A stretch of DNA of 64,000 nucleotides from Kordia sp. (lineage in GTDB: Bacteria; Bacteroidota; Bacteroidia; Flavobacteriales; Flavobacteriaceae). The notes beneath the pieces are model-generated. The model was not told the DNA's origin and searched no databases. It saw only the letters and a program-made list of their open reading frames with translations. The stretch spans positions 1 through 64,000 of the forward strand of contig NZ_JAKVBC010000024.1 of NCBI RefSeq assembly GCF_022447245.1, given 5' to 3'. The position numbers and the translations under genes were made by a program. Below are positions 20,329 to 33,729 of the stretch, in pieces (within the stretch, counting starts at the first letter, position 1; every line of letters begins with the position of its first letter).

Positions 20329-21891
20329 ATGAATAGTTCAAATCCATTTAAAAATTTCAAATCAGACATACCCGCAAGTATAGTAGTATTTTTTGTGGCA
20401 CTGCCCTTGTGTTTGGGTATTGCTTTGGCCAGTGGTGCGCCACCGATTTCAGGTTTAATTGCCGGAATTATTGGAGGTATCATTGTTGGTATCATAAGTG
20501 GCTCACACATTGGTGTGAGTGGACCTGCTGCTGGTCTTGCTGCAATCGTTTTTGCAGCAATAGAATCTCTAGGTTTTAGAGACTTTTTAGTAGCCGTAGT
20601 ATTGGCTGGAGTTATTCAAATTCTATTTGGAGTTTTACGACTTGGTATCATCGGATACTTTTTCCCTTCTTCTGTAATTAGAGGAATGCTTACTGGTATT
20701 GGTATCATTATCATTTTGAAAGAGATTCCATATTTCTTTGGATACGATCCAGTAAAAGGCGAAGGAACCTTTGCAGCTATTGGATCTACATTTTCTAACA
20801 TAAGTGTAGGAGCTACTGTTGTGGGACTTATTGGAATCGCAATATTGTTACTATGGCAAAACGTATTAACTAAAAAAGCAAAGATTTTTCAACTCATACA
20901 AGGACCTTTGGTCGCAGTTATTATAGGGATTCTTTTTTATGTATTCTTAGGAGATTCTGAGACGTTTGGTATTGCTGCTGAAAGTTTAGTAGAAGTTCCT
21001 GTTCCAGAAACGATGGATTCTTTCTTAAATCAATTCGTGTTTCCTAATTGGGCTGTAATTGCAAAGCCTGAGGTATTAATTACTGCTTTTACGATTGCAC
21101 TAGTTGCTAGTTTAGAAACATTATTGTGTGTAGAAGCAACAGATAAAATTGACCCATTAAAACGTGTTACTCCGACAAACAGAGAGTTAATCGCTCAAGG
21201 AGCTGGTAATGTAGTTTCTGGATTAATTGGAGGGTTACCAATTACTCAGGTAATTGTAAGAAGTTCTGCAAATATTCAATCTGGTGGACGCACTAAAATG
21301 TCTGCAATTGTTCACGGTTTCTTCTTGTTAATTTCTATTATTTTAATTCCAACCTTATTAAATAAAATACCATTGGCAGTATTAGCTGCTATTTTATTCA
21401 TCGTTGGATATAAATTAGCAAAGCCAGCTGCATTTAAGAGTATGTGGGATGCAGGATGGATGCAATTTGTTCCTTTCATTGTAACGGTATTACTAATTGT
21501 ATTCAAAGACTTATTATGGGGAATTGGAATAGGATTGGCAATTGGTGTTATTATTACTCTTTTCAAGAGTTACCAAAACTCTCACTTCTTGCATATTGAA
21601 GATAAAAGCAATGGGAAACATAGAATTAAAATGACCTTAGCAGAAGAAGTAACTTTCTTCAATAAAGCCACCATTTTAAAAGAATTAGATAGTCTTCCAA
21701 AAGATACGCACTTAGAACTTGATGTGCGCAAAACAAGCTACTTAGATCATGATGTTATTGAAATTTTAGACGATTTCAAAGAAAAAGCAAAAAATAGAAA
21801 TATAAACGTGAAGCTTGTTTCAGAAAGAGGTACTGTTGAAAACCCTGAAAGTTATATCGAGTTTTTTAAACTTAGACCTACACAATCATAA
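20329..21891 (+). CDS. SulP-family anion transporter with STAS domain
   Basis: 520 residues. The SulP signature region opens the protein: FKSDIPASIVVFFVALPLCLGIALASGAPP, GISGSHIGVSGPAAGL, followed by about 10-12 membrane helices (for example GVIQILFGVLRLG and SLETLLCVEATDKIDP). A C-terminal STAS-like domain follows from about residue 430 (HLELDVRKTSYLDHDVIEIL). SulP proteins move sulfate, bicarbonate or other anions. A beta-carbonic anhydrase starts 36 bases later, which points to bicarbonate as substrate, as in other marine flavobacteria; this is inference. Confidence 0.9.
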   Translation: MNSSNPFKNFKSDIPASIVVFFVALPLCLGIALASGAPPISGLIAGIIGGIIVGIISGSHIGVSGPAAGLAAIVFAAIESLGFRDFLVAVVLAGVIQILFGVLRLGIIGYFFPSSVIRGMLTGIGIIIILKEIPYFFGYDPVKGEGTFAAIGSTFSNISVGATVVGLIGIAILLLWQNVLTKKAKIFQLIQGPLVAVIIGILFYVFLGDSETFGIAAESLVEVPVPETMDSFLNQFVFPNWAVIAKPEVLITAFTIALVASLETLLCVEATDKIDPLKRVTPTNRELIAQGAGNVVSGLIGGLPITQVIVRSSANIQSGGRTKMSAIVHGFFLLISIILIPTLLNKIPLAVLAAILFIVGYKLAKPAAFKSMWDAGWMQFVPFIVTVLLIVFKDLLWGIGIGLAIGVIITLFKSYQNSHFLHIEDKSNGKHRIKMTLAEEVTFFNKATILKELDSLPKDTHLELDVRKTSYLDHDVIEILDDFKEKAKNRNINVKLVSERGTVENPESYIEFFKLRPTQS

Positions 21892-21927
21892 CAAACTAAA
21901 TTAAAAAATATAATTAAAAGAAATAAA

Positions 21928-22554
21928 ATGAAAGCACAAACTAAAGAAACACAAGCAGTAATGACTCCTGATTCTTCAATTCAGGCATTGAAAGACGGAA
22001 ACAAGCGTTTTGTAGAAAACATGCAAGTTTCTCGTGATTTACTTGATCAAGTTTCTGATACAAGTACAGGACAATACCCATTTGCAACAGTTTTAAGTTG
22101 TATTGACTCTCGCGTTTCCTCTGAACTTATTTTTGATCAAGGAATTGGAGATATTTTTAGCGTACGTATTGCTGGAAACTTCGTAAACGAAGATATTTTA
22201 GGTAGTATGGAATTTGCTTGTAAACTAGCTGGAACTAAAGTAATCGTAGTTCTAGGACATACAGCTTGTGGAGCAGTTAAAGGTGCTTGTGACCATGCAA
22301 GACTTGGAAATTTAACAGCTTTAATCAACAAAATTGAGCCAGCAGTAGAAGCGGTTACTGAGCCTACTGACGAAAGCTTACGTAACTCAAAAAACATTGA
22401 GTTTGTAAACAATGTAGCTGCTAAAAATGTTGAAATGACTATTGAAAACATTCGTAAACAAAGTCCTGTGTTAGCAGAATTAGAAAACGAAGGAGATATC
22501 AAAATTGTAGGCGGAATGTACGATATCAGTAATGGTAAAGTAACTTTCTACTAG
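21928..22554 (+). CDS. Beta-class carbonic anhydrase
   Basis: 208 residues. Zinc ligands Cys58, His111 and Cys114 and the Asp60-Arg62 dyad are visible in LSCIDSR and LGHTACGAVKGAC. The enzyme interconverts CO2 and bicarbonate. No signal peptide, so cytoplasmic. Adjacent to SulP and only one base from the following outer membrane gene; the set probably supplies inorganic carbon for anaplerotic reactions or pH control. Confidence 0.95.
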   Translation: MKAQTKETQAVMTPDSSIQALKDGNKRFVENMQVSRDLLDQVSDTSTGQYPFATVLSCIDSRVSSELIFDQGIGDIFSVRIAGNFVNEDILGSMEFACKLAGTKVIVVLGHTACGAVKGACDHARLGNLTALINKIEPAVEAVTEPTDESLRNSKNIEFVNNVAAKNVEMTIENIRKQSPVLAELENEGDIKIVGGMYDISNGKVTFY

Positions 22555-24720: not shown

Positions 24721-24765
24721 TGTAACCAATGTTACAGCACACCATTTTCAAAAGCAGTAATTTTG
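24721..24765 (+). promoter_or_regulatory. Crp-type operator and promoter of the regulator gene
   Basis: TGTAACCAATGTTACA (24721-24736) is a perfect TGTAA-N6-TTACA palindrome. TAATTTTG (24758-24765) is a perfect -7 box that begins 29.5 bases after the operator centre, which places the operator near -41, the class II activator position. It precedes the Crp-family gene, so autoregulation is likely. The rest of the 24381-24811 gap is AT-rich and shows no other gene. Confidence 0.75.
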
Positions 24766-24820
24766 AATCAGATACTATCATTACTTTTAGTGAATAGAGT
24801 TAATATCTAAATTGCACTTC

Positions 24821-25456
24821 ATGATTCAAGAACTTAAATACAACTACAGACATCTCTTTGAAGAAGATTTACTCAATGAAATTTCACAAGTAGGAACATT
24901 TAAAGAAGTTCCTGCTGGTTTTACCATGATGGCAATTGGCGATTACGTCCGCGGAATGCCCTTACTTGTTTTTGGTGCAATTAAGGTAATTCGTGAAGAC
25001 AAAGAAGGCGACGAATTGCTTCTATATTATTTAGAAAGCGGTGAAACCTGTTCTATGACAATGAATTGTTGTATGGGACAAACAAAAAGCCAAATAAAAG
25101 CTGTTGCGGAGCAAGACACAAAACTTATTATCGTGCCAATTCAAAAAATGGAAGAATGGATAGCAACCTATAAAACATGGCGCGATTTTGTATTTCTAAG
25201 TTATCATACACGACTCAATGAAGTATTGCATATTTTAGATAGCGTAGCGTTTGAAAAAATGGATCAACGCTTGGTAAATTACTTAAAGGAGAAAATTCGT
25301 ATAAACAAATCGAACACAATTCACAATACCCATCAAGAAATTGCATATGAATTACATAGCTCGAGAGTAGTAATATCAAGGCTTTTGAAAAAATTAGAAC
25401 AATTGGGTTGCATAGAATTGCACAGAAATCATATTAAAATCATAAATTTAGCCTGA
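24821..25456 (+). CDS. Crp/Fnr-family regulator of the sulfur-respiration island
   Basis: 211 residues from ATG at 24821 (an in-frame TTG lies three codons earlier). N-terminal cyclic-nucleotide-binding-type fold (FKEVPAGFTMMAIGDYVRG, LLLYYLESGE) without the Fnr cysteine cluster; instead it carries Cys77 and the pair Cys83-Cys84 in ETCSMTMNCCMGQ. C-terminal winged HTH: HNTHQEIAYELHSSRVVISR then LLKKLEQLG. The recognition helix has Arg182-Val183...Arg187 where E. coli CRP has Arg180-Glu181...Arg185. The Cys residues may sense sulfane sulfur or redox change (inference). Six operator-like sites nearby suggest the regulon. Confidence 0.85.
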   Translation: MIQELKYNYRHLFEEDLLNEISQVGTFKEVPAGFTMMAIGDYVRGMPLLVFGAIKVIREDKEGDELLLYYLESGETCSMTMNCCMGQTKSQIKAVAEQDTKLIIVPIQKMEEWIATYKTWRDFVFLSYHTRLNEVLHILDSVAFEKMDQRLVNYLKEKIRINKSNTIHNTHQEIAYELHSSRVVISRLLKKLEQLGCIELHRNHIKIINLA

Positions 25457-25459
25457 ATA

Positions 25460-25503
25460 TGTAACTTTTGTTACTGCAAAATCATTGCCCAAACTGTACT
25501 TTG
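25460..25503 (+). promoter_or_regulatory. Crp-type operator and promoter of the TSUP gene
   Basis: TGTAA-CTTTTG-TTACT at 25460-25475, followed by TACTTTG (25497-25503; one spacer base shorter than the consensus box). The TA begins 29.5 bases after the operator centre. Confidence 0.7.
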
Positions 25504-25527
25504 CACTGACAAATACCTAAATCAATT

Positions 25528-26325
25528 ATGGAAATACTTGGCTATGTTAGTGCCTTAATTATTGGAATTTCTCTTGGTCTTATTGGCGGTGGCGGCTCTA
25601 TTTTAGCCGTTCCAGTCCTCGCCTATTTATTTGCAGTAAACGAAAAAATGGCAACTGCTTACTCCCTTTTTATTGTTGGGACAAGTGCATTAGTTGGTGG
25701 ACTTAAACAGCACCTAAAAGGATTTGTTGACTGGCGTACCGCAATCGTTTTCGGAGTTCCTTCGATTATTGGTGTTACTTTGGTTCGTTATTATATAATT
25801 CCTGCCTTACCCAATACCTTATTTACTATAGGAGATTTTGAATTTACACGCAGAATGGGAATGTTTGGTTTGTTTGCCATACTTATGTTTCCTGCTGCTA
25901 TTTCTATGCTTAAAGAACGTAATGATAAATCAAGTACTGGACAGATTTCTTATAATTACCCATTAATTCTTTTAGAAGGTTTGGTTGTAGGAATTGGTAC
26001 TGGAATGATTGGTGCAGGTGGCGGTTTTTTAATTATTCCTGCGTTGGTATTATTAGCAAATGTAGAAATGAAAGTTGCGGTAGGTACCTCATTAATCATC
26101 ATTGCTTTTAAATCACTATTAGGTTTCTTTTTAGGCGATGCCATTACGATGGAAATAGACTGGCAATTTTTAGCAATTTTTACCTCCATATCATTAGTCG
26201 GAATTTTTATTGGAAGCTATTTAGGAAATTTCATCGATGGAAAGAAACTCAAAAAAGGATTTGGTTATTTTATCTTTGTAATGGCTATTTTCATTTTCTA
26301 CATGGAGTTTTTTATAAAGCAATAA
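25528..26325 (+). CDS. TSUP (TauE/SafE) family exporter
   Basis: 265 residues with about eight membrane helices and the duplicated TSUP motif: LIGGGGSILAVPVL near residue 20 and GTGMIGAGGGFLIIPALV in the second half. TSUP proteins move sulfite, sulfoacetate or related sulfur anions. Next to a persulfide dioxygenase, which makes sulfite, export of sulfite is the likely task. Own operator upstream; starts 72 bases after the regulator gene. Confidence 0.9.
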   Translation: MEILGYVSALIIGISLGLIGGGGSILAVPVLAYLFAVNEKMATAYSLFIVGTSALVGGLKQHLKGFVDWRTAIVFGVPSIIGVTLVRYYIIPALPNTLFTIGDFEFTRRMGMFGLFAILMFPAAISMLKERNDKSSTGQISYNYPLILLEGLVVGIGTGMIGAGGGFLIIPALVLLANVEMKVAVGTSLIIIAFKSLLGFFLGDAITMEIDWQFLAIFTSISLVGIFIGSYLGNFIDGKKLKKGFGYFIFVMAIFIFYMEFFIKQ

Positions 26326-26348
26326 GTCTTTAAAAAAAAGTACCATTC

Positions 26349-26393
26349 TGTAACCCAAGTTACTGTTTATAAATGTTTCTGTTCGTAATTTTA
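26349..26393 (+). promoter_or_regulatory. Crp-type operator and promoter of the persulfide dioxygenase gene
   Basis: TGTAA-CCCAAG-TTACT at 26349-26364 and TAATTTTA at 26386-26393, again 29.5 bases from the operator centre to the start of the -7 box. Confidence 0.7.
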
Positions 26394-26415
26394 TCTCATC
26401 TTAAAATTACTACGT

Positions 26416-27822
26416 ATGAAGATAGAACAAATACATACAGGCTGCCTAGCACAAGGCGCATATTACATAGAAAGCAACGGAGAAGGTGCCATTATTGATC
26501 CTTTACGTGAAGTACAACCTTATCTTGAAAAAGCGCAACAACAAAACGCAAAAATCAAATACATTTTTGAAACGCATTTTCATGCTAATTTTGTCAGTAG
26601 ACATGTTACTTTAGCTGAAAAAACAGGCGCTCCCATTGTGTATGGTCCTAACGCTAAACCTGCGTTTGAAGCCGTAATAGCAGAAGACAACCAAGAGTTT
26701 ACTTTAGGAAATATTACGATTATTGCTTTACATACACCAGGCCATACGATGGAAAGCACTTCGTATCTGTTGCGTGATGAAAGTGGAAAAGATCATGCGT
26801 TATTTAGTGGTGACACCTTGTTTTTAGGTGATGTTAGGAAGACCTGATTTAGCACAAAAAGCAGGTGAAATTACCGTAGAAGATTTGGCAAGTCATTTAT
26901 TTAATAGTTTACGCGAAAAAATCAAGCCTTTAGCAGATGACGTCATTGTATATCCTGCACATGGATCAGGTTCTGCCTGCGGAAAAACATGATGAAAGAA
27001 ACTGTTGATACTTTAGGCTATCAGAAGAAAGTTAACTATGCTCTACGAGTTAGTATGACAAAGGAGGAATTCATTAAAGAAGTTACCGATGGTTTACTTC
27101 CGCCTCCAAGTTATTTTCCTGATAATGTAAAGCTTAACAAAAAAGGATATGATGATATTTCAGAAGTGTTACAACGCGGTACAACTGCTTTGTCACCGAC
27201 AGAATTTGAAGTTATTGCCAACGAAACCAATGCTATTGTCTTAGACGTTCGTCATCAAGATGAATTTGTAAAAGGTCACATTCCGCGGTCCATTTTTATA
27301 GGATTGGATGGAAGTTTTGCTCCTTGGGTTGGTACACTAATTGCCGATATCAAACAACCAATTTTATTAGTCGCTCAAGAAAATCGTGAGGAGGAAACAG
27401 TTACACGATTATCAAGAGTTGGTTTTGATCACACCTTAGGATATTTGCAAGGCGGATTTGACGCATGGAAAAATGCTACTAAAGAATACGATACTGTAAG
27501 TTCAATCACTTCAGAGGCTTTTCAGAAGGTATACCAAACAGCACTGCCCGTATTTGATGTACGACTTGATGCTGAATTTACCTCAGAACACATTTTGGAA
27601 GCAACAAACACACCTGTAGATTATATAAATAACCATTTAGCTGAATTTCCAAAAGAGGAAACATTTTATGTGTATTGTACTGGTGGCTATCGTAGTGTTA
27701 TTGCTGCTTCTATATTAAAAAGTAGAGGCATTCATAACCTTATCAATATTAAAGGTGGATTTAAAGCGATTGAAGAAACGACAATTCCTGTTTCTGAATT
27801 TGTATGTCCATCGAGTTTATAA
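26416..27822 (+). pseudogene. Persulfide dioxygenase-rhodanese fusion with two compensating frameshifts
   Basis: The start encodes an MBL-fold ETHE1-like dioxygenase: IFETHFHANFVSRH, HTPGHTMEST and LFSGDTLFLGDV. An extra A near 26836 then ends the frame at 26847. The next frame carries on exactly (GRPDLAQKAGEITVEDL ... VYPAHGSGSACGK) until the A5 tract at 26983-26987, where one missing A restores the first frame (MMKETVDTLGYQKK). Two rhodanese domains follow: the first lacks the Cys, the second has CTGGYRS. The full protein would have about 469 residues. It oxidises persulfide to sulfite. The middle 150 bases have no stops, so the damage is very recent or a sequencing error. Confidence 0.8.
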
Positions 27823-27910
27823 ATAAAATTTGAGTGCAGTTAGGTAAGAAAAATGTTTTGAGTTTGTTATGGCAAAATCACTCAACTGTACTCAATATAT
27901 CAATACTTTC

Positions 27911-27955
27911 TGTGACTAAAGTTACTGAGTCCTAATCAAGGAACTCTTATTTTTA
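27911..27955 (+). promoter_or_regulatory. Crp-type operator and promoter of the rhodanese gene
   Basis: TGTGA-CTAAAG-TTACT at 27911-27926; the left half-site keeps the E. coli CRP form TGTGA. TATTTTTA at 27948-27955 starts 29.5 bases after the operator centre. Confidence 0.65.
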
Positions 27956-27979
27956 CACGGATAACCTAAATCTACATAT

Positions 27980-28324
27980 ATGTATTTTACCAATGCTTTA
28001 TTTGGCAGAGAATCAAAATCCTTAGAAGGAATCGAAATCTTAGAGGTTGCCGTTTTCAAAGAAGCCATTTCCGCAGCAGATGTCCAATTACTAGACGTCC
28101 GCACAAAACTAGAACACAATGCTGGACATATTGAAAATTCCATGAATATTGACTTTTTTGATCGTACCAACTTTGCAGAAAACTTTGCAGGTTTCAATAG
28201 AGATCAACCTATCTATGTATACTGTCGTTCAGGAAATAGAAGTCAACGCAGTGCTAAAAAACTAGCAAAATTAGGGTTCAAGAAAGTTTATGATTTAAAA
28301 GGCGGTTATAAAGCTTGGAAATAG
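27980..28324 (+). CDS. Single-domain rhodanese
   Basis: 114 residues. Rhodanese motifs: LLDVRTKLEHNAGHIENSMN, active-site loop YVYCRSGNRSQRS with the catalytic Cys, and VYDLKGGYKAWK at the end. No signal peptide. It transfers sulfane sulfur, probably between persulfide carriers, and has its own copy of the Crp-type operator. Convergent with the methyltransferase gene, whose stop lies two bases away. Confidence 0.9.
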   Translation: MYFTNALFGRESKSLEGIEILEVAVFKEAISAADVQLLDVRTKLEHNAGHIENSMNIDFFDRTNFAENFAGFNRDQPIYVYCRSGNRSQRSAKKLAKLGFKKVYDLKGGYKAWK

Positions 28325-28325
28325 T

Positions 28326-28922
28326 CTATTTCATCAACACCAATGTTATCATACTCCTTAAATCATTTACATTCGTGCTTTTTACATGTTCTAATAATGA
28401 AAGTTGATGTGTGGTAAGCATTTCGTTTAATAATGCTCTTGTGAGTAAGAAACGTTCTGATTGATCTGGTAAGAAATATACGCCGTCTTGTAAAAGTGTT
28501 GATTTCCCTTCAATGCCAATATCGGAAGTCATTCGTATAAATAAACTTCCATCCTTTTTTAACACACGTACCAATTCAGAAAACATTGCTTTAAAATGTG
28601 TTTCACTTTTTGCAAAATGTAAAACAGCATTGCACAAAACATGATCAAACATAGTATCAGAAAAAGGTAGTTTTTCTAAAGCTGATACTTTAAAATTCTC
28701 AGAAAGTTTTGGATATCGTTCTTGAAGATTTTTTATATGTTCTGTATTGATATCATTTGCGTAAAATGGAATACCACTTTGGTGGAAGTAATGTAAATTT
28801 CGCCCACTTCCGCAACCTGCATCCAAAATCAGATCATTTTGTTGATAGCGTCCTTTTAAAATTTGATCTATCAAATAAATATCTGCATTCCCTAAAATTT
28901 CGGTTAAAATGTGTTGTTTCAT
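28326..28922 (-). CDS. Class I SAM-dependent methyltransferase
   Basis: 198 residues. Motif I DAGCGSGRNLHYF, acidic loop YANDINTEH and post-motif FDHVLCNAVLHFA are the class I Rossmann pattern. Substrate unknown. It is the only minus-strand gene inside the sulfur island and has no Crp-type operator, so it is probably not part of the regulon. Confidence 0.8.
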   Translation of the reverse strand: MKQHILTEILGNADIYLIDQILKGRYQQNDLILDAGCGSGRNLHYFHQSGIPFYANDINTEHIKNLQERYPKLSENFKVSALEKLPFSDTMFDHVLCNAVLHFAKSETHFKAMFSELVRVLKKDGSLFIRMTSDIGIEGKSTLLQDGVYFLPDQSERFLLTRALLNEMLTTHQLSLLEHVKSTNVNDLRSMITLVLMK

Positions 28923-29092
28923 ACTAGTAAAATAAGGAATTCAATTTACAATTCTAATAGTTTTATTTCACACCTTAAAAAAGTTATAATTCACAAGCAA
29001 ATATTTCTTAAAATCGCATGGTCTATCTGCAAAAAATCCGTATTTTATATAGTATAATATACGTAAAAAATAGTTGATATAAAAACGTATTT

Positions 29093-29138
29093 CGCAACCA
29101 TAGTTGCCTATTAAATAAGCATTTGTGATGTATCTTTG
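29093..29138 (+). promoter_or_regulatory. Variant Crp-type operator and promoter of cydAB
   Basis: CGCAA-CCATAG-TTGCC at 29093-29108 is a palindrome with the same N6 spacing but G/C changes in each half-site. TATCTTTG at 29131-29138 is a perfect -7 box, 30.5 bases from the operator centre. The promoter position requires the cydA start to be the ATG at 29158 rather than the earlier one at 29125. Confidence 0.55.
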
Positions 29139-29157
29139 CAGTACAAAATTCTTCACC

Positions 29158-30543
29158 ATGGATACAGAAATTCTCGCTCGAATCCAATTTGCTTTCACAA
29201 TTGCCTTTCATTACATTTATCCGCCTTTAAGTATTGGTCTTGGACTTTTAATGGTACTGTTTGAAAGTATGTATATCCGTACAAAAAACAAGAAGTATCA
29301 CATCCTCGCAAAATTCTGGACAAAAATCTTTGCACTCACCTTTGGAATTGGTGTTGTGACTGGTATTGTGATGGAATTTGAATTTGGAACCAATTGGGCA
29401 GTATATTCACGGTATGTAGGTGATGTGTTTGGAAGCGCCTTAGCTGCTGAAGGGATTTTTGCCTTTGCTTTAGAGAGTGGATTTCTCGGAATTTTACTTT
29501 TTGGATGGAATCGTGTAAAACCTTGGGTACATCTAGTCTCTACCATTGGTGTGTTTCTAGGTTCTATGTTTTCTGCCGTTTGGATTGTGGTAGCCAATAG
29601 TTGGCAACAAACACCTGCAGGTTACCAAATTGTTGGGGAAGGACTCAATGCACGAGCCGAAATCACTGATTTTTGGGCCATGGTTTTTAATCCTTCAAGT
29701 GTAGATAGAGTACTTCATGTTTGGCTAGGTGCATTGCTAGCTGGTGCGTTTTTAGTTTTAAGCGTACATGCCTATTATATTGTAAAAAATCGTTTTGTAG
29801 AAATTTCAAAACCTGCATTCAAAATTGCATTGGTCGTTGCGGCTGTATTTTCGTTGGCGCAATTATACACAGGGCATCATTCTGCGGAAGGCGTAGCAGT
29901 AAATCAACCTGCAAAACTGGCTGCCATGGAAGGGCATTTTAAAGCCAGTGCGCCTGCAGATCTGTATTTGTTTGGTTGGGTTGATAAAGAGTCGCAGGAA
30001 GTGACTGGACTTAAAATTCCTGGCGGACTTTCCTTTTTGCTACATTATGATACAGAAGCGCCCGTTACAGGTTTAAATGCCTTTCCCGAAGAAGATAGAC
30101 CTGGACAAATTAATGCCGTATTTCAATTTTATCATATCATGATTGCTATCGGAATGATCCTTATCGGATTGTCCTTATACGGCGTTTTTCTTTGGTGGAA
30201 AGGAAAACTATTTCGTAAAAAAGGATTGCTTTGGGTATTTGTATTTGCTGCTATTTTGCCACAAATTGCCAATCAAGCAGGTTGGTTTGCTGCCGAAATG
30301 GGACGACAACCTTGGGTTGTATATGGACATTTGCGAACCAATGAAGCCTTTTCACAAGCTGTGACTGATAATCAGATATTGTTCTCCTTAATTCTATTTA
30401 TGATTGTATATGCCTTCCTATTCTTATTATTTATCTATTTATTGAATAAAAAGATTCAGCATGGACCATATGAAGCTTCGAAAAAGGATGATAATGATAG
30501 ACCGTTAAACAAAGAAATAACACAAGTAGTAATTGGAAATTAA
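29158..30543 (+). CDS. cydA: Cytochrome bd oxidase subunit I
   Basis: 461 residues from ATG at 29158 (MDTEILARIQFAFTIAFHYI). The haem b595/d ligand region FHYIYPPLSIG, the helix EFGTNWAVYSRYVGDVFGSALAAEG and the quinol-site motif GRQPWVVYGHLRT are present. Shorter than E. coli CydA (522), consistent with a short Q loop. The enzyme oxidises quinol and reduces O2 without pumping; bd oxidases resist sulfide, which fits the neighbouring persulfide genes. cydB starts six bases downstream. Confidence 0.96.
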   Translation: MDTEILARIQFAFTIAFHYIYPPLSIGLGLLMVLFESMYIRTKNKKYHILAKFWTKIFALTFGIGVVTGIVMEFEFGTNWAVYSRYVGDVFGSALAAEGIFAFALESGFLGILLFGWNRVKPWVHLVSTIGVFLGSMFSAVWIVVANSWQQTPAGYQIVGEGLNARAEITDFWAMVFNPSSVDRVLHVWLGALLAGAFLVLSVHAYYIVKNRFVEISKPAFKIALVVAAVFSLAQLYTGHHSAEGVAVNQPAKLAAMEGHFKASAPADLYLFGWVDKESQEVTGLKIPGGLSFLLHYDTEAPVTGLNAFPEEDRPGQINAVFQFYHIMIAIGMILIGLSLYGVFLWWKGKLFRKKGLLWVFVFAAILPQIANQAGWFAAEMGRQPWVVYGHLRTNEAFSQAVTDNQILFSLILFMIVYAFLFLLFIYLLNKKIQHGPYEASKKDDNDRPLNKEITQVVIGN

Positions 30544-30549
30544 AAGCGT

Positions 30550-31587
30550 ATGGAAACTTTTTTAGGATTAGATTATCCCACTTGGTGGTTTTTAGTAATT
30601 GGTGGATTGTTCTCTGGATACGCCATCTTAGATGGTTTCGATTTTGGAGCTGGTGCTTGGCATTTATTTTTCAAGAAAGATCACAGTCGTCGTATTGCCA
30701 TGAATGCTGTTGGACCTGTTTGGGACGGAAATGAAGTATGGCTTGTAATTGGTGGCGGTGCATTATTTGCTGGTTTCCCAGTGATGTATGCAACCTTTTT
30801 TTCAAGTATGTATATTCCGTTTATGCTATTTTTAGTCTTCCTGATTTTGCGAGGTATCTCTATTGAAGTCCGAGGGAAAGAAGAATGGCCTTGGTGGCGA
30901 AATATGTTTGATATTATTTACAGTGTTTCCAGCATTATGCTAGCGTTCTTGTTAGGTGTTGTTCTCGGAAATGTATTGCAAGGATTGGCTATTGGCCCAG
31001 AATATCAATATCAAGGAGCAGGATTTTTTGAATTCTTAAATCCATATTCTTTATTGACTGGATTTACTACGTTATTTCTATTCATGACACATGGTGCTAT
31101 TTATTTACTGGTTAAAACGGAAGGTAGATTGTTTGCTAAATTGACCATTCTTATGAAACGAGGATTGATTTTATTTATGGTTTTCTTTGGCATCACTACA
31201 ATGTATACTTTGTTATATATCCCACATTTATCTGATGATTTTAAAGCGAATCCAGTTTTATTTGCCGCACCATTAATTACGTTTTTGTCGATTGCAAATG
31301 TGCCACGATTGGCAAATAAAAAACGATACAAACTCGCATTTATATTTTCGTCTATTACCATTGCTTCCATGTTGGTTTTGGTTGCGATAGAATTATATCC
31401 AACACTGTTATTTTCTACAGTAAATGCGCAATACAATATTGATATATACAATGCTGCTGCTTCAGAAGGTTCTATGGAAAACATGCTGATTATCGTGGCT
31501 ATTGGAACACCTTTGGTATTAGGTTATACGTATTTTGTATACCGAACATTTAGAGGAAAAGTTCAGCTAGACGAAACTAGTTATTAA
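30550..31587 (+). CDS. cydB: Cytochrome bd oxidase subunit II
   Basis: 345 residues with eight or nine membrane helices. Typical start LDYPTWWFLVIGGLFSGYAI then LDGFDFGAG; GPVWDGNEVWLVIGGGALFAGFP is the CydB signature. Forms the oxidase with CydA. No CydX-like small gene was seen after it; the next unit has its own operator eight bases after the stop. Confidence 0.96.
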   Translation: METFLGLDYPTWWFLVIGGLFSGYAILDGFDFGAGAWHLFFKKDHSRRIAMNAVGPVWDGNEVWLVIGGGALFAGFPVMYATFFSSMYIPFMLFLVFLILRGISIEVRGKEEWPWWRNMFDIIYSVSSIMLAFLLGVVLGNVLQGLAIGPEYQYQGAGFFEFLNPYSLLTGFTTLFLFMTHGAIYLLVKTEGRLFAKLTILMKRGLILFMVFFGITTMYTLLYIPHLSDDFKANPVLFAAPLITFLSIANVPRLANKKRYKLAFIFSSITIASMLVLVAIELYPTLLFSTVNAQYNIDIYNAAASEGSMENMLIIVAIGTPLVLGYTYFVYRTFRGKVQLDETSY

Positions 31588-31593
31588 ACACTC

Positions 31594-31638
31594 TGTAACC
31601 TAAGTTACTTCCATCTCGATTGGTTTTTCTTTTTTTTG
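31594..31638 (+). promoter_or_regulatory. Crp-type operator and promoter of the YeeE-type gene
   Basis: TGTAA-CCTAAG-TTACT at 31594-31609, with TTTTTTTG (31631-31638, TAnnTTTG with A to T) starting 29.5 bases after the operator centre. The position supports the gene start at 31656 rather than 31620. Confidence 0.65.
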
Positions 31639-31655: not shown

Positions 31656-32213
31656 ATGGAATGGATATATGAACCTTGGCCATGGTATGTTTCTGGCGTC
31701 ATGATTGCGCTAGTGATGTTTTTATTAATCATGGTTGGAAAAAACTTTGGAATGTCTGGAAATTTGCGAACTATTTGCAGTATTTGCGGCGCAGGAAATA
31801 AAGCTGATTTTTTTAAGTTTTATTGGAAAGCACAACGTTGGAACTTGATAGTAGTATTAGGAACAATGATTGGCGGATTCATTGTGCATGATTTTTTAAT
31901 GCTTGAAGATGCTGTCGCCATCAACTCAACTACAATTGCTGATTTACACGCTTTAGGTTTTGAAAGTGCTGGAAAAGCGTATTTACCTGAAACCTTATTT
32001 TCTTTTGAAGCTTTCTCTACTATAAAAAGTTTTTCATTACTCATTATTGGCGGATTTTTAGTTGGTTTTGGCGCGCGCTATGCTGGCGGTTGTACATCAG
32101 GTCATGCCATTTCAGGGTTGAGTAATTTACAAGTACCTTCACTCATTGCTGTGATTGGTTTTTTCATTGGCGGTTTACTCATGATTCACATTTTATTTCC
32201 TTTACTTTTTTAA
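31656..32213 (+). CDS. YeeE/YedE-type sulfur transporter, first half
   Basis: 185 residues from ATG at 31656 (MEWIYEPWPWYVSG). About five membrane helices; ICSICGAGNK and ARYAGGCTSGHAISGLSNLQ carry the conserved Cys residues of the YeeE/YedE family, which imports thiosulfate or other sulfane-sulfur compounds. In many Bacteroidota the transporter is split into this half and a DUF6691 half; the second half follows after three bases but is truncated here. Confidence 0.85.
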   Translation: MEWIYEPWPWYVSGVMIALVMFLLIMVGKNFGMSGNLRTICSICGAGNKADFFKFYWKAQRWNLIVVLGTMIGGFIVHDFLMLEDAVAINSTTIADLHALGFESAGKAYLPETLFSFEAFSTIKSFSLLIIGGFLVGFGARYAGGCTSGHAISGLSNLQVPSLIAVIGFFIGGLLMIHILFPLLF

Positions 32214-32216
32214 ATT

Positions 32217-32507
32217 ATGAAAAGAACTATTATGTATTTATTGATCGGGATTGTATTCGGAATCACGATGATGAAGTCGGAAACAGTCTCCTGGTTTTGC
32301 ATTTATGAAATGTTCATATTTGAATCGTTTCATAAGTATGGAATTATTGGAGTTGCGTTTTTCTTAGGTGTGATCATGACTCAAATTATCAAACGCTATA
32401 AGATAAAGTCGTTTTATGGAGAAGCGATTTTATTTCCACCGAAATAGAAAAAAGCAGCTCGTTATTTAATTGGTAGAATCATTTTTGGTTTAGGTGTTTG
32501 GTGCTAG
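32217..32507 (+). pseudogene. DUF6691 second half of the YeeE-type transporter, truncated
   Basis: Reads MKRTIMYLLIGIVFGITMM, FIFESFHKYGIIGVAFFLGV and FYGEAILFPPK, then TAG at 32445-32447. The same frame goes on KKAARYLIGRIIFGLGVWC before a second stop at 32505, and the usual following segment with the conserved Gly-Ala-Cys-Pro motif is missing. Intact relatives are about 135 residues; here 76 remain. The transporter is probably non-functional or works as a half-protein. Confidence 0.75.
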
Positions 32508-32593
32508 AAAAATCATAAACCTAAGATTCACAATTACATCTAAATACTATATTAAAAAAGTAATCGTTTCATAGTTTAGAAAACTAACAACCG

Positions 32594-33729
32594 ATGATGA
32601 AACAAACTTTACTATTCCTTTTTTTCTAACGTTTTTTACTGGATATACCCAAAACGATACTGTGTTTTAGGTAAAAATTGACGCTAATGTAGAAAACGCT
32701 AATGATCCTGAAGAGAAAGAAATTATAGTACTTTGGACAGCGTATTTACAATCTGGAGAATTCAAAAATTCAGAAATTCCTTTTTGGGGCACCAGTGAAT
32801 ATCATATTCCAGATGATTTTTTATGGATGGTTGATCTTAGATCCGTTCGTACTAGAACTCCAAAAGTTCAATGTACAGTTTTAGGTATTTTTAAGGTGGA
32901 AAATGGTCATTATGCGATAAAAACTTCTTTAGCCCATTTAGATAAAAATAATACCATTGTTTTGGAAGCAATCCTTTCTGTATATGTTAAAAAAGTAAAT
33001 GGAAAATATGTGCTTGTCATTAGTCCTCAGTATCATCAAAATGTTTAGCAAAAAAAGCAATTTGGCGCTATCACCTATTATATTCATCCTCTACATCAAT
33101 TTGATGAAAAAGATGCTTCTCGCATGAATGCTTTTAATGAAGAAATTGCAAAAATTTTTAAGGTAGCTCCAATTTCATTTAATTATTATGTGAGTAGTTA
33201 TTCTGGAGAAATTGTACGTTTGATTGGCTATGATTATATGAGCAAGATTTACATTTCTGGTTAAACTGGCGGCTTGGCAGATATTCATAACCGAATTGTG
33301 TATGCTGGAAATAATTCAGCGTATTATGCACATGAATTGGTTCATATTTATACATACGAACTTTTCCCAGATACCAATTATTTTTGGTTAAATGAAGGAT
33401 TTGCCACGTATATGGATGGAAGCGGTGGCAAAGATTTGGCTTGGTATACTAAGAAATTGAAAGCGTATCTTTTAGAAAATACTGATTTTGAAATTTCTCT
33501 ATTAGAATTGCGCGGTTATATTCCAAATGGTGAAGATCATACCTAATTTAGGTATGTTATTGGCGGATTGATTTGTATAAAAGTTTTTGAAAAACACGGA
33601 ATGCAAGGTGTTATTGATGGCTTACGAACTGTAGACACAGATGCAGACTTTTTCAAGTTTATCAAAGAGAAATTAGGTGTAAACAAAGAGAGATTTTCTG
33701 CTTATGTTAGAAAAATTGCTGCGGAATAA
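32594..33729 (+). pseudogene. Secreted gluzincin-type metallopeptidase, multiply broken
   Basis: Signal peptide MMKQTLLFLFF is cut by a one-base slip in a T tract near 32620. In the main frame there are stops at 32668 (TAG), 33046 (TAG), 33262 (TAA) and 33544 (TAA), yet the coding sense continues across all of them to the final TAA at 33727. The zinc site is intact: YYAHELVHIYTYELF followed by WLNEGFATYMDG, the HExxH plus downstream Glu of MA-clan peptidases. All four internal stops could arise from CAA or CAG by C-to-T change. An ancestral product of about 375 residues. Confidence 0.8.

Follow-up and report, generated by a model that had tools for sequence, protein, structure and literature searches.

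A stretch of 64,000 nucleotides from the genome of a Kordia species (contig NZ_JAKVBC010000024.1 of assembly GCF_022447245.1), hereafter the window, contains a 7-kb cluster in which near-identical palindromic operators stand at a fixed distance from promoter boxes, upstream of a Crp-family regulator gene and of several genes related to sulfur metabolism. We consider it very probable, from the sequence comparisons described below, that this arrangement represents a class II regulon wherein the Crp-family protein would activate genes for the handling of sulfide and reactive sulfur. An original prediction made for this DNA had proposed a regulon of the Crp type whose operators keep a constant class II position, and this proposal agrees with a discovery set and a held-out set of related loci, with the co-occurrence of regulator and site, and, within the limits set by common descent, with the covariation of recognition helix and operator.

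The five predicted palindromes are present on the forward strand, beginning at positions 24721, 25460, 26349, 27911 and 31594. Operator 1, TGTAACCAATGTTACA (24721..24736), lies upstream of the regulator gene and has a matching site in Kordia jejudonensis, and operator 2, TGTAACTTTTGTTACT (25460..25475), precedes a TSUP-family gene. Operator 3, TGTAACCCAAGTTACT (26349..26364), operator 4, TGTGACTAAAGTTACT (27911..27926), and operator 5, TGTAACCTAAGTTACT (31594..31609), stand before a dioxygenase-rhodanese gene, a rhodanese gene and the first of two YeeE half genes, respectively, and all three, like operator 1, were also recovered by the composite search described below. The motif had been given as TGTAA-N6-TTACA, a form that captures the palindrome but leaves out an inner C and G that belong to it; the five copies in the window yield the consensus TGTRAC-N4-GTTACW.

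Each operator is followed on the same strand by a candidate -7 box. These boxes are TAATTTTG (24758..24765), the 7-mer TACTTTG (25497..25503), TAATTTTA (26386..26393), TATTTTTA (27948..27955) and the box-like TTTTTTTG (31631..31638), of which all but the 7-mer were likewise found by the composite search. The expected TAnnTTTG-like boxes are thus present, but only the one at 24758 is perfect, those at 26386 and 27948 terminate in A, one is the 7-mer, and the odd TTTTTTTG recurs at the matching site in K. jejudonensis. Measured in the sequence, the distance from operator centre to box start is 29.5 bases at all five operators, and it is 30.5 at a variant, GCAAC-CATA-GTTGC (29094..29107), which precedes cydA and is followed by the box TATCTTTG (29131..29138). 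Both distances are as originally predicted. The claim that this variant constitutes a sixth site holds as far as its presence and its box are concerned; with 8 of 12 consensus bases, however, it is weak alone and scores at the background of the window. It is the most degenerate operator in the cluster.

Across the 5.24-Mb genome the exact motif occurs in 10 places, five of which fall inside this 7-kb cluster. When operator, 22 intervening bases and box are searched for as one composite pattern with at most one mismatch, only five places remain, four in the cluster and one before a DUF983 gene on another contig. The site at 25460 carries two composite mismatches because its box is short. Four other exact operators (C8, C15, C43 and C53) were rejected as background, being situated inside long open frames and having no box at the right distance. 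Looser patterns lose this specificity: in the window, TGTAA-N6-TTACA with up to two mismatches shows no enrichment (96 matches against 85 expected), the motif with one mismatch is at background genome-wide (78/92 against 87/92), and the composite with three mismatches shows no excess (53/68 versus 123/110 in a reversed control).

Comparison with relatives supports the geometry. We assembled 80 neighbourhoods of regulator homologues, and later 20 more, chosen by hand from the regulator match lists to span a range of identity rather than at random. The pattern GTRAC-N4-GTYAC has 207 matches in 69 of the 80 loci, compared with 0-3 matches at every other spacing from 0 to 10. After exclusion of 10 sites that could not be oriented, and with retention of six of the 207 that are flagged within crude gene calls, 197 oriented sites remain, and 171 of them have a TAnnTTTG box with at most one mismatch at exactly 29.5 bases. 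Exact boxes number 79 at this offset, 4 at one base shorter and 2 at one base longer, and the profile of these 197 sites has no strong -33 element. Seven of 80 named loci share DNA with the first set; the other 73, analysed without orientation as a held-out set, gave 192 sites in 68 loci, with 0 to 4 at other spacings. A box is present on at least one side of 171 of these 192 sites, and exact boxes are found 95 times at the offset versus 1 and 2 times at the neighbouring offsets. Taken together, the clustering of the exact motif, the spacing specificity in relatives and the box geometry in two sets place the shared spacing beyond chance, as the original prediction maintained.

In Flavobacterium psychrophilum, passages of a published study place the TAnnTTTG box at -12 to -5 of mapped transcription starts (PMC9723704). 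Because the operator centre lies 29.5 bases before the first base of the box, it would be situated at -41.5, which fits the class II position by sequence, the start being placed from the box, and matches the earlier estimate of a position near -41.

Regulator and composite site also occur together. Among 120 Flavobacteriaceae genomes sampled evenly, the exact composite is present in 83 and its reversed control in none. It is found in 82 of the 103 genomes with a regulator match versus 1 of the 17 without one, a split read from match lists (Fisher p 6e-9). Of 299 sampled Flavobacteriaceae genomes, 255 have a match to the regulator at E 1e-20; for the phylum as a whole the figure is 117 of 296 genomes at E 1e-15. 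Weaker matches in these lists may be paralogues.

The fifth exact operator outside the cluster, between a divergent ABC-family gene and the DUF983 gene, has a perfect box at 29.5 bases. Eight of the 197 oriented sites, spread over 8 of the 80 regulator neighbourhoods, have a DUF983 gene as their first gene, and the protein of one relative, compared pairwise, shares 50% identity with its counterpart here. Because the site has a perfect box at the proper offset and homologues of its gene stand at sites beside the regulator in relatives, it very likely represents a true member of the regulon. The proposal of a compact six-site regulon therefore stands for the cluster sites but not as a complete account, since at least one unlinked member would have to be added.

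The regulator gene (24821..25456, forward strand) encodes a protein of 211 residues whose nearest named relative is from Kordia jejudonensis (86%). Its matches to PF00027 (27.9 bits, cut-off 27.5) and PF13545 (36.8 bits, cut-off 27) place it in the Crp/Fnr superfamily. An AlphaFold model (predicted local distance difference test score, pLDDT, 86.7) has Crp-family structures as its top matches, many with root-mean-square deviations over 10. The recognition helix, SRVVISR, retains both DNA-contact arginines of CRP, and in a profile alignment CRP E181 corresponds to V183, a valine as in NtcA, whose helix the pattern R-V-x-x-x-R resembles.

This helix position appears to covary with the operator. 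In 78 loci whose regulators have V, a GTGAC half is present in 15 of 181 box-bearing sites. In 22 loci whose regulators have E, a relaxed scan returned 11 strand matches at offset 29, corresponding to 10 distinct sites in 10 loci, all 10 of which include a GTGAC half (7 mixed, 3 double). A search of eight E-class loci for perfect 6-base palindromes with a box found one, the same as control shifts. The tree requires three E/V changes and contains two independent pairs with sites; over 200 random pairings an average of 1.9 agreed and none was opposite. Much of the covariation is explained by descent.

A second distinctive feature of the regulator is a loop containing C77, C83 and C84. Cysteine is conserved at position 77 in 81 of 81 aligned regulators, at 83 in 80 and at 84 in 77; over 100 loci that include distant ones, C77 is kept in 100 and C83 in 93. 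The only other cysteine, C197, is not conserved. The C-x5-C-C loop aligns with the stretch that holds cAMP in CRP, and E72 and R82, the cAMP-contact residues of CRP, correspond to T80 and S90. Confidence in this loop is low in the AlphaFold model, where residues 71-90 have block means of 70 and 61. Four classes of sulfur genes are absent nearby in 5 of 7 loci without C83 versus 14 of 93 with it, which is suggestive only of an association between loss of C83 and missing sulfur neighbours. The seven distant regulators without C83 (L165 and L242-L247) have C-G-G, C-A-G or C-T-T instead, and one of them, L243, does have sulfur genes nearby.

The first genes at the 197 oriented sites, classified from one representative for each of ten clusters, are most often dioxygenase-rhodanese (45), TSUP (32), SQR-like (17), rhodanese (13) and YeeE (12). 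Less frequent are 1-Cys peroxiredoxin (11), the regulator (10), DUF983 (8), outer membrane efflux (8), SulP (5), Tll0287-like (5), HMA, CydA and fatty acid hydroxylase (4 each), SorA-like sulfite dehydrogenase (4) and SoxA/TsdA-like cytochrome (2). The SQR-like and SorA-like labels reflect scores under the cut-offs of their models. The other 13 sites belong to rarer, unnamed classes: one cluster of 3 sites, one of 2 and eight singles. The sulfur theme of the originally proposed "sulfur respiration" regulon is retained, but oxidation and detoxification of sulfide, persulfide and sulfite, together with a bd oxidase, better describe this set. For cydA, all four homologues at least 75% identical have a site with at least 10 of 12 bases and a box at offset 28 to 30, as do 3 of 11 more distant ones. 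One locus (L131) has two successive operator-like sites upstream of cydA, each with its own box. In Acinetobacter, cydAB is sulfide-induced, and YeeE-YedE and a second dioxygenase are under BigR control, according to passages of PMC7315123.

From these observations we infer the following mechanism. A dimer of the 211-residue protein would bind TGTRAC-N4-GTTACW centred at -41.5 and recruit RNA polymerase to promoters that have a -7 box and no clearly conserved upstream (-33) element. Its own gene and those for the TSUP exporter, the persulfide dioxygenase-rhodanese, the rhodanese, the YeeE-type proteins and the unlinked DUF983 protein would thereby be activated, and probably cydAB as well. In what was once the cyclic-nucleotide (cNMP) pocket, C77 and C83, together with C84, may sense persulfide or polysulfide. 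Sensing of reactive sulfur by such a dithiol is plausible. We put forward more tentatively the fuller hypothesis, for which the case falls somewhat short of even, that the pocket now serves as a dithiol switch, formed by C77 and C83 and often C84, responding directly to persulfide or polysulfide, and that it governs a sulfide-defence regulon in most Flavobacteriaceae with NtcA-like specificity tuned by one helix residue, where V would go with GTAAC and E with GTGAC.

Several observations weigh against this interpretation. No site was found in 11 of the 80 loci, and 21 of the 103 regulator-bearing genomes lack the exact composite. Of the 17 regulator-less genomes, 13 are smaller than 2.7 Mb, and genome reduction may therefore account for part of the co-occurrence. 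Sites are missing from 12 of the 22 E-class loci, and 7 of the 10 E-class sites are mixed GTAAC/GTGAC; with only two independent E/V contrasts, the covariation cannot be significant after correction for descent. The 14 of 93 C83-bearing loci that lack all four classes of sulfur genes in their neighbourhood must be counted here, as must the fatty acid hydroxylase, HMA and outer membrane efflux targets, which have no obvious sulfur role. The 8/12 score of the cydA variant is attained elsewhere in the window, and in L340, another Crp-like protein of this genome, the helix reads SRETLSR and so includes both arginines and an E between them.

The most serious alternative is that the regulon is real and its signal is something other than reactive sulfur: the cysteine loop might hold a metal or a cluster, or the protein might respond to oxygen, nitric oxide, disulfide stress or glutathione, with the sulfur genes embedded in a wider redox response. 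We regard this as a possibility of some weight, albeit a rather doubtful one. Against it, the most frequent targets are genes of the dioxygenase-rhodanese, TSUP, SQR-like, rhodanese and YeeE classes, and only three clustered cysteines are conserved, none of them N-terminal like the ligands of FNR. On the other hand, some sites have genes for 1-Cys peroxiredoxin, HMA, cytochrome or bd oxidase as their first gene, and glutathione activates the Crp-family proteins Vfr and PrfA, as stated in passages of PMC7315123.

It is improbable that the protein is instead a repressor, or has dual function, such that the fixed spacing would reflect promoter occlusion. Autoregulation is compatible with repression, and passages of a review name three sulfide sensors of which two, SqrR and BigR, are repressors (PMC12170894). 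A repressor, however, would tolerate other positions, whereas the single invariant -41.5 spacing and the lack of a strong -33 element fit the arrangement of a class II activator. Less probable still is that these sites are bound by a different Crp-family protein of this genome. There are 13 proteins with cNMP domains above the cut-off, including L340; no other helix read among them equals R-V-V-I-S-R (L343, a cut frame, lies outside this set), an E between the arginines accompanies GTGAC halves in the regulator's own family, and the composite site co-occurs with the family of the 211-residue regulator. Finally, chance palindromes in an AT-rich genome, suggested by the background frequency of the loose motif (two mismatches in the window, one in the genome), can be rejected with near certainty given the exact motif, the spacing specificity, the box geometry in both sets and the composite count in 120 genomes against its reversed control.

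The gene identities assigned in the original prediction (Crp-family, TSUP, persulfide dioxygenase-rhodanese, rhodanese, cydAB and YeeE-type) agree with domain searches, except that the dioxygenase is named from domain order, no model scoring above its cut-off. The following genes are on the forward strand. The TSUP (TauE/SafE family) exporter gene (25528..26325) matches PF01925 (E 4e-38). The persulfide dioxygenase-rhodanese gene (26416..27822) encodes a part with a metallo-beta-lactamase fold and then two rhodanese stretches. It contains two compensating frameshifts that leave approximately 150 bases out of frame, and it is intact, at 468 residues and equal in length to the gene here, in two close relatives; the indels are either sequencing errors or signs of a damaged gene behind an intact promoter. 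The single-domain rhodanese gene (27980..28324; 114 residues, PF00581) is separated from cydAB by a methyltransferase gene on the opposite strand.

Cytochrome bd oxidase subunits I and II are encoded by cydA (29158..30543; PF01654) and cydB (30550..31587; TIGR00203 above cut-off). In the two closest relatives (L086 and L248), cydAB is absent from the place it occupies here between the methyltransferase and YeeE genes (region 28326-31587), pointing to either a gain in this genome or a loss in those two. The first YeeE/YedE-type sulfur transport gene (31656..32213) matches PF04143, and its match to TsuA is far under the cut-off. The second half gene (32217..32447; 76 residues) has no Pfam match of its own. 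It looks shortened in this genome: its homologue in L086 has 137 residues, which is also the median in 24 loci, and matches DUF6691 and Sulf_transp. Farther downstream, the region 32580-33729 is split into several open frames by stops when inspected by eye, and possibly represents a decayed peptidase-like gene. About 2 kb upstream of the cluster, genes for a SulP-family transporter and a carbonic anhydrase (20329-22554) have no exact operator. A search of this genome found no close SQR, the best match being 33% over 109 residues.

Flavobacteria are abundant marine degraders that meet sulfide at particle and sediment interfaces. If our interpretation is right, a regulator carried by 255 of the 299 sampled Flavobacteriaceae genomes controls their handling of sulfide, persulfide and sulfite. 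Under the dithiol-switch hypothesis, a new type of sensor would join those of the ArsR, sigma-54-dependent and MarR types; CsoR-type sulfur sensors also exist. The findings suggest a widespread, little-studied route to reactive-sulfur sensing, specify the operator, the geometry and the candidate cysteines, and offer a set of promoters for the study of how class II activation works with the sigma factor of Bacteroidota.

Among the matches listed from Creative Commons-licensed articles in PubMed Central (PMC), where the slash form 'Crp/Fnr' was possibly unmatched, there was no description of a Crp-family sulfur regulon in Bacteroidota. The sulfur sensors mentioned in passages of a 2025 review (PMC12170894) are SqrR, BigR and FisR, none of which belongs to the Crp family. 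As is proposed for the regulator described here, these proteins control persulfide dioxygenase, YeeE/YedE or SQR genes, as passages of PMC12170894 and PMC7315123 describe. They belong to unrelated regulator families, BigR and SqrR being ArsR-type repressors and FisR a sigma-54-dependent activator. The regulator cannot be assigned to the BigR/SqrR group, because only Crp/cNMP domains were found and the ArsR-family fold is absent.

Closer parallels are found within the Crp family. The oxygen sensor FNR uses an N-terminal cysteine cluster for its [4Fe-4S] cofactor, and FNR identity was rejected for our protein, whose cysteines are at 77, 83, 84 and 197 only. The nearest solved chain by sequence, the Eubacterium rectale Crp/Fnr protein 3DV8 ('putative' by its title), keeps the C-x5-C pair and differs in having no adjacent third cysteine. 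With class II CRP of E. coli the regulator shares its fold, both DNA-contact arginines and the predicted -41.5 placing. In contrast, CRP has E181 where V183 is found here, an operator with GTGAC rather than GTAAC, and E72 and R82 in place of T80 and S90, and the three cysteines of the pocket loop are a feature of our protein. Orthology to CRP was rejected given the loss of the cAMP-contact residues and an NCBIfam CRP equivalog score of 40.9 bits (cut-off 266).

The cyanobacterial regulator NtcA offers a further likeness. According to passages of PMC3898017, its site GTAN8TAC has its centre near -41.5, and a cited example places it 22 bases from the -10 box. The operator described here contains GTA-N8-TAC centred at a similar predicted position, and the regulator has V at the position of CRP E181. 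An NtcA model score of 40.3 bits (cut-off 244.95) and the predominance of sulfur genes among the targets led us to reject orthology. NtcA controls nitrogen genes in response to 2-oxoglutarate, whereas the protein described here is associated with sulfur targets and carries a C-x5-C-C loop in its pocket.

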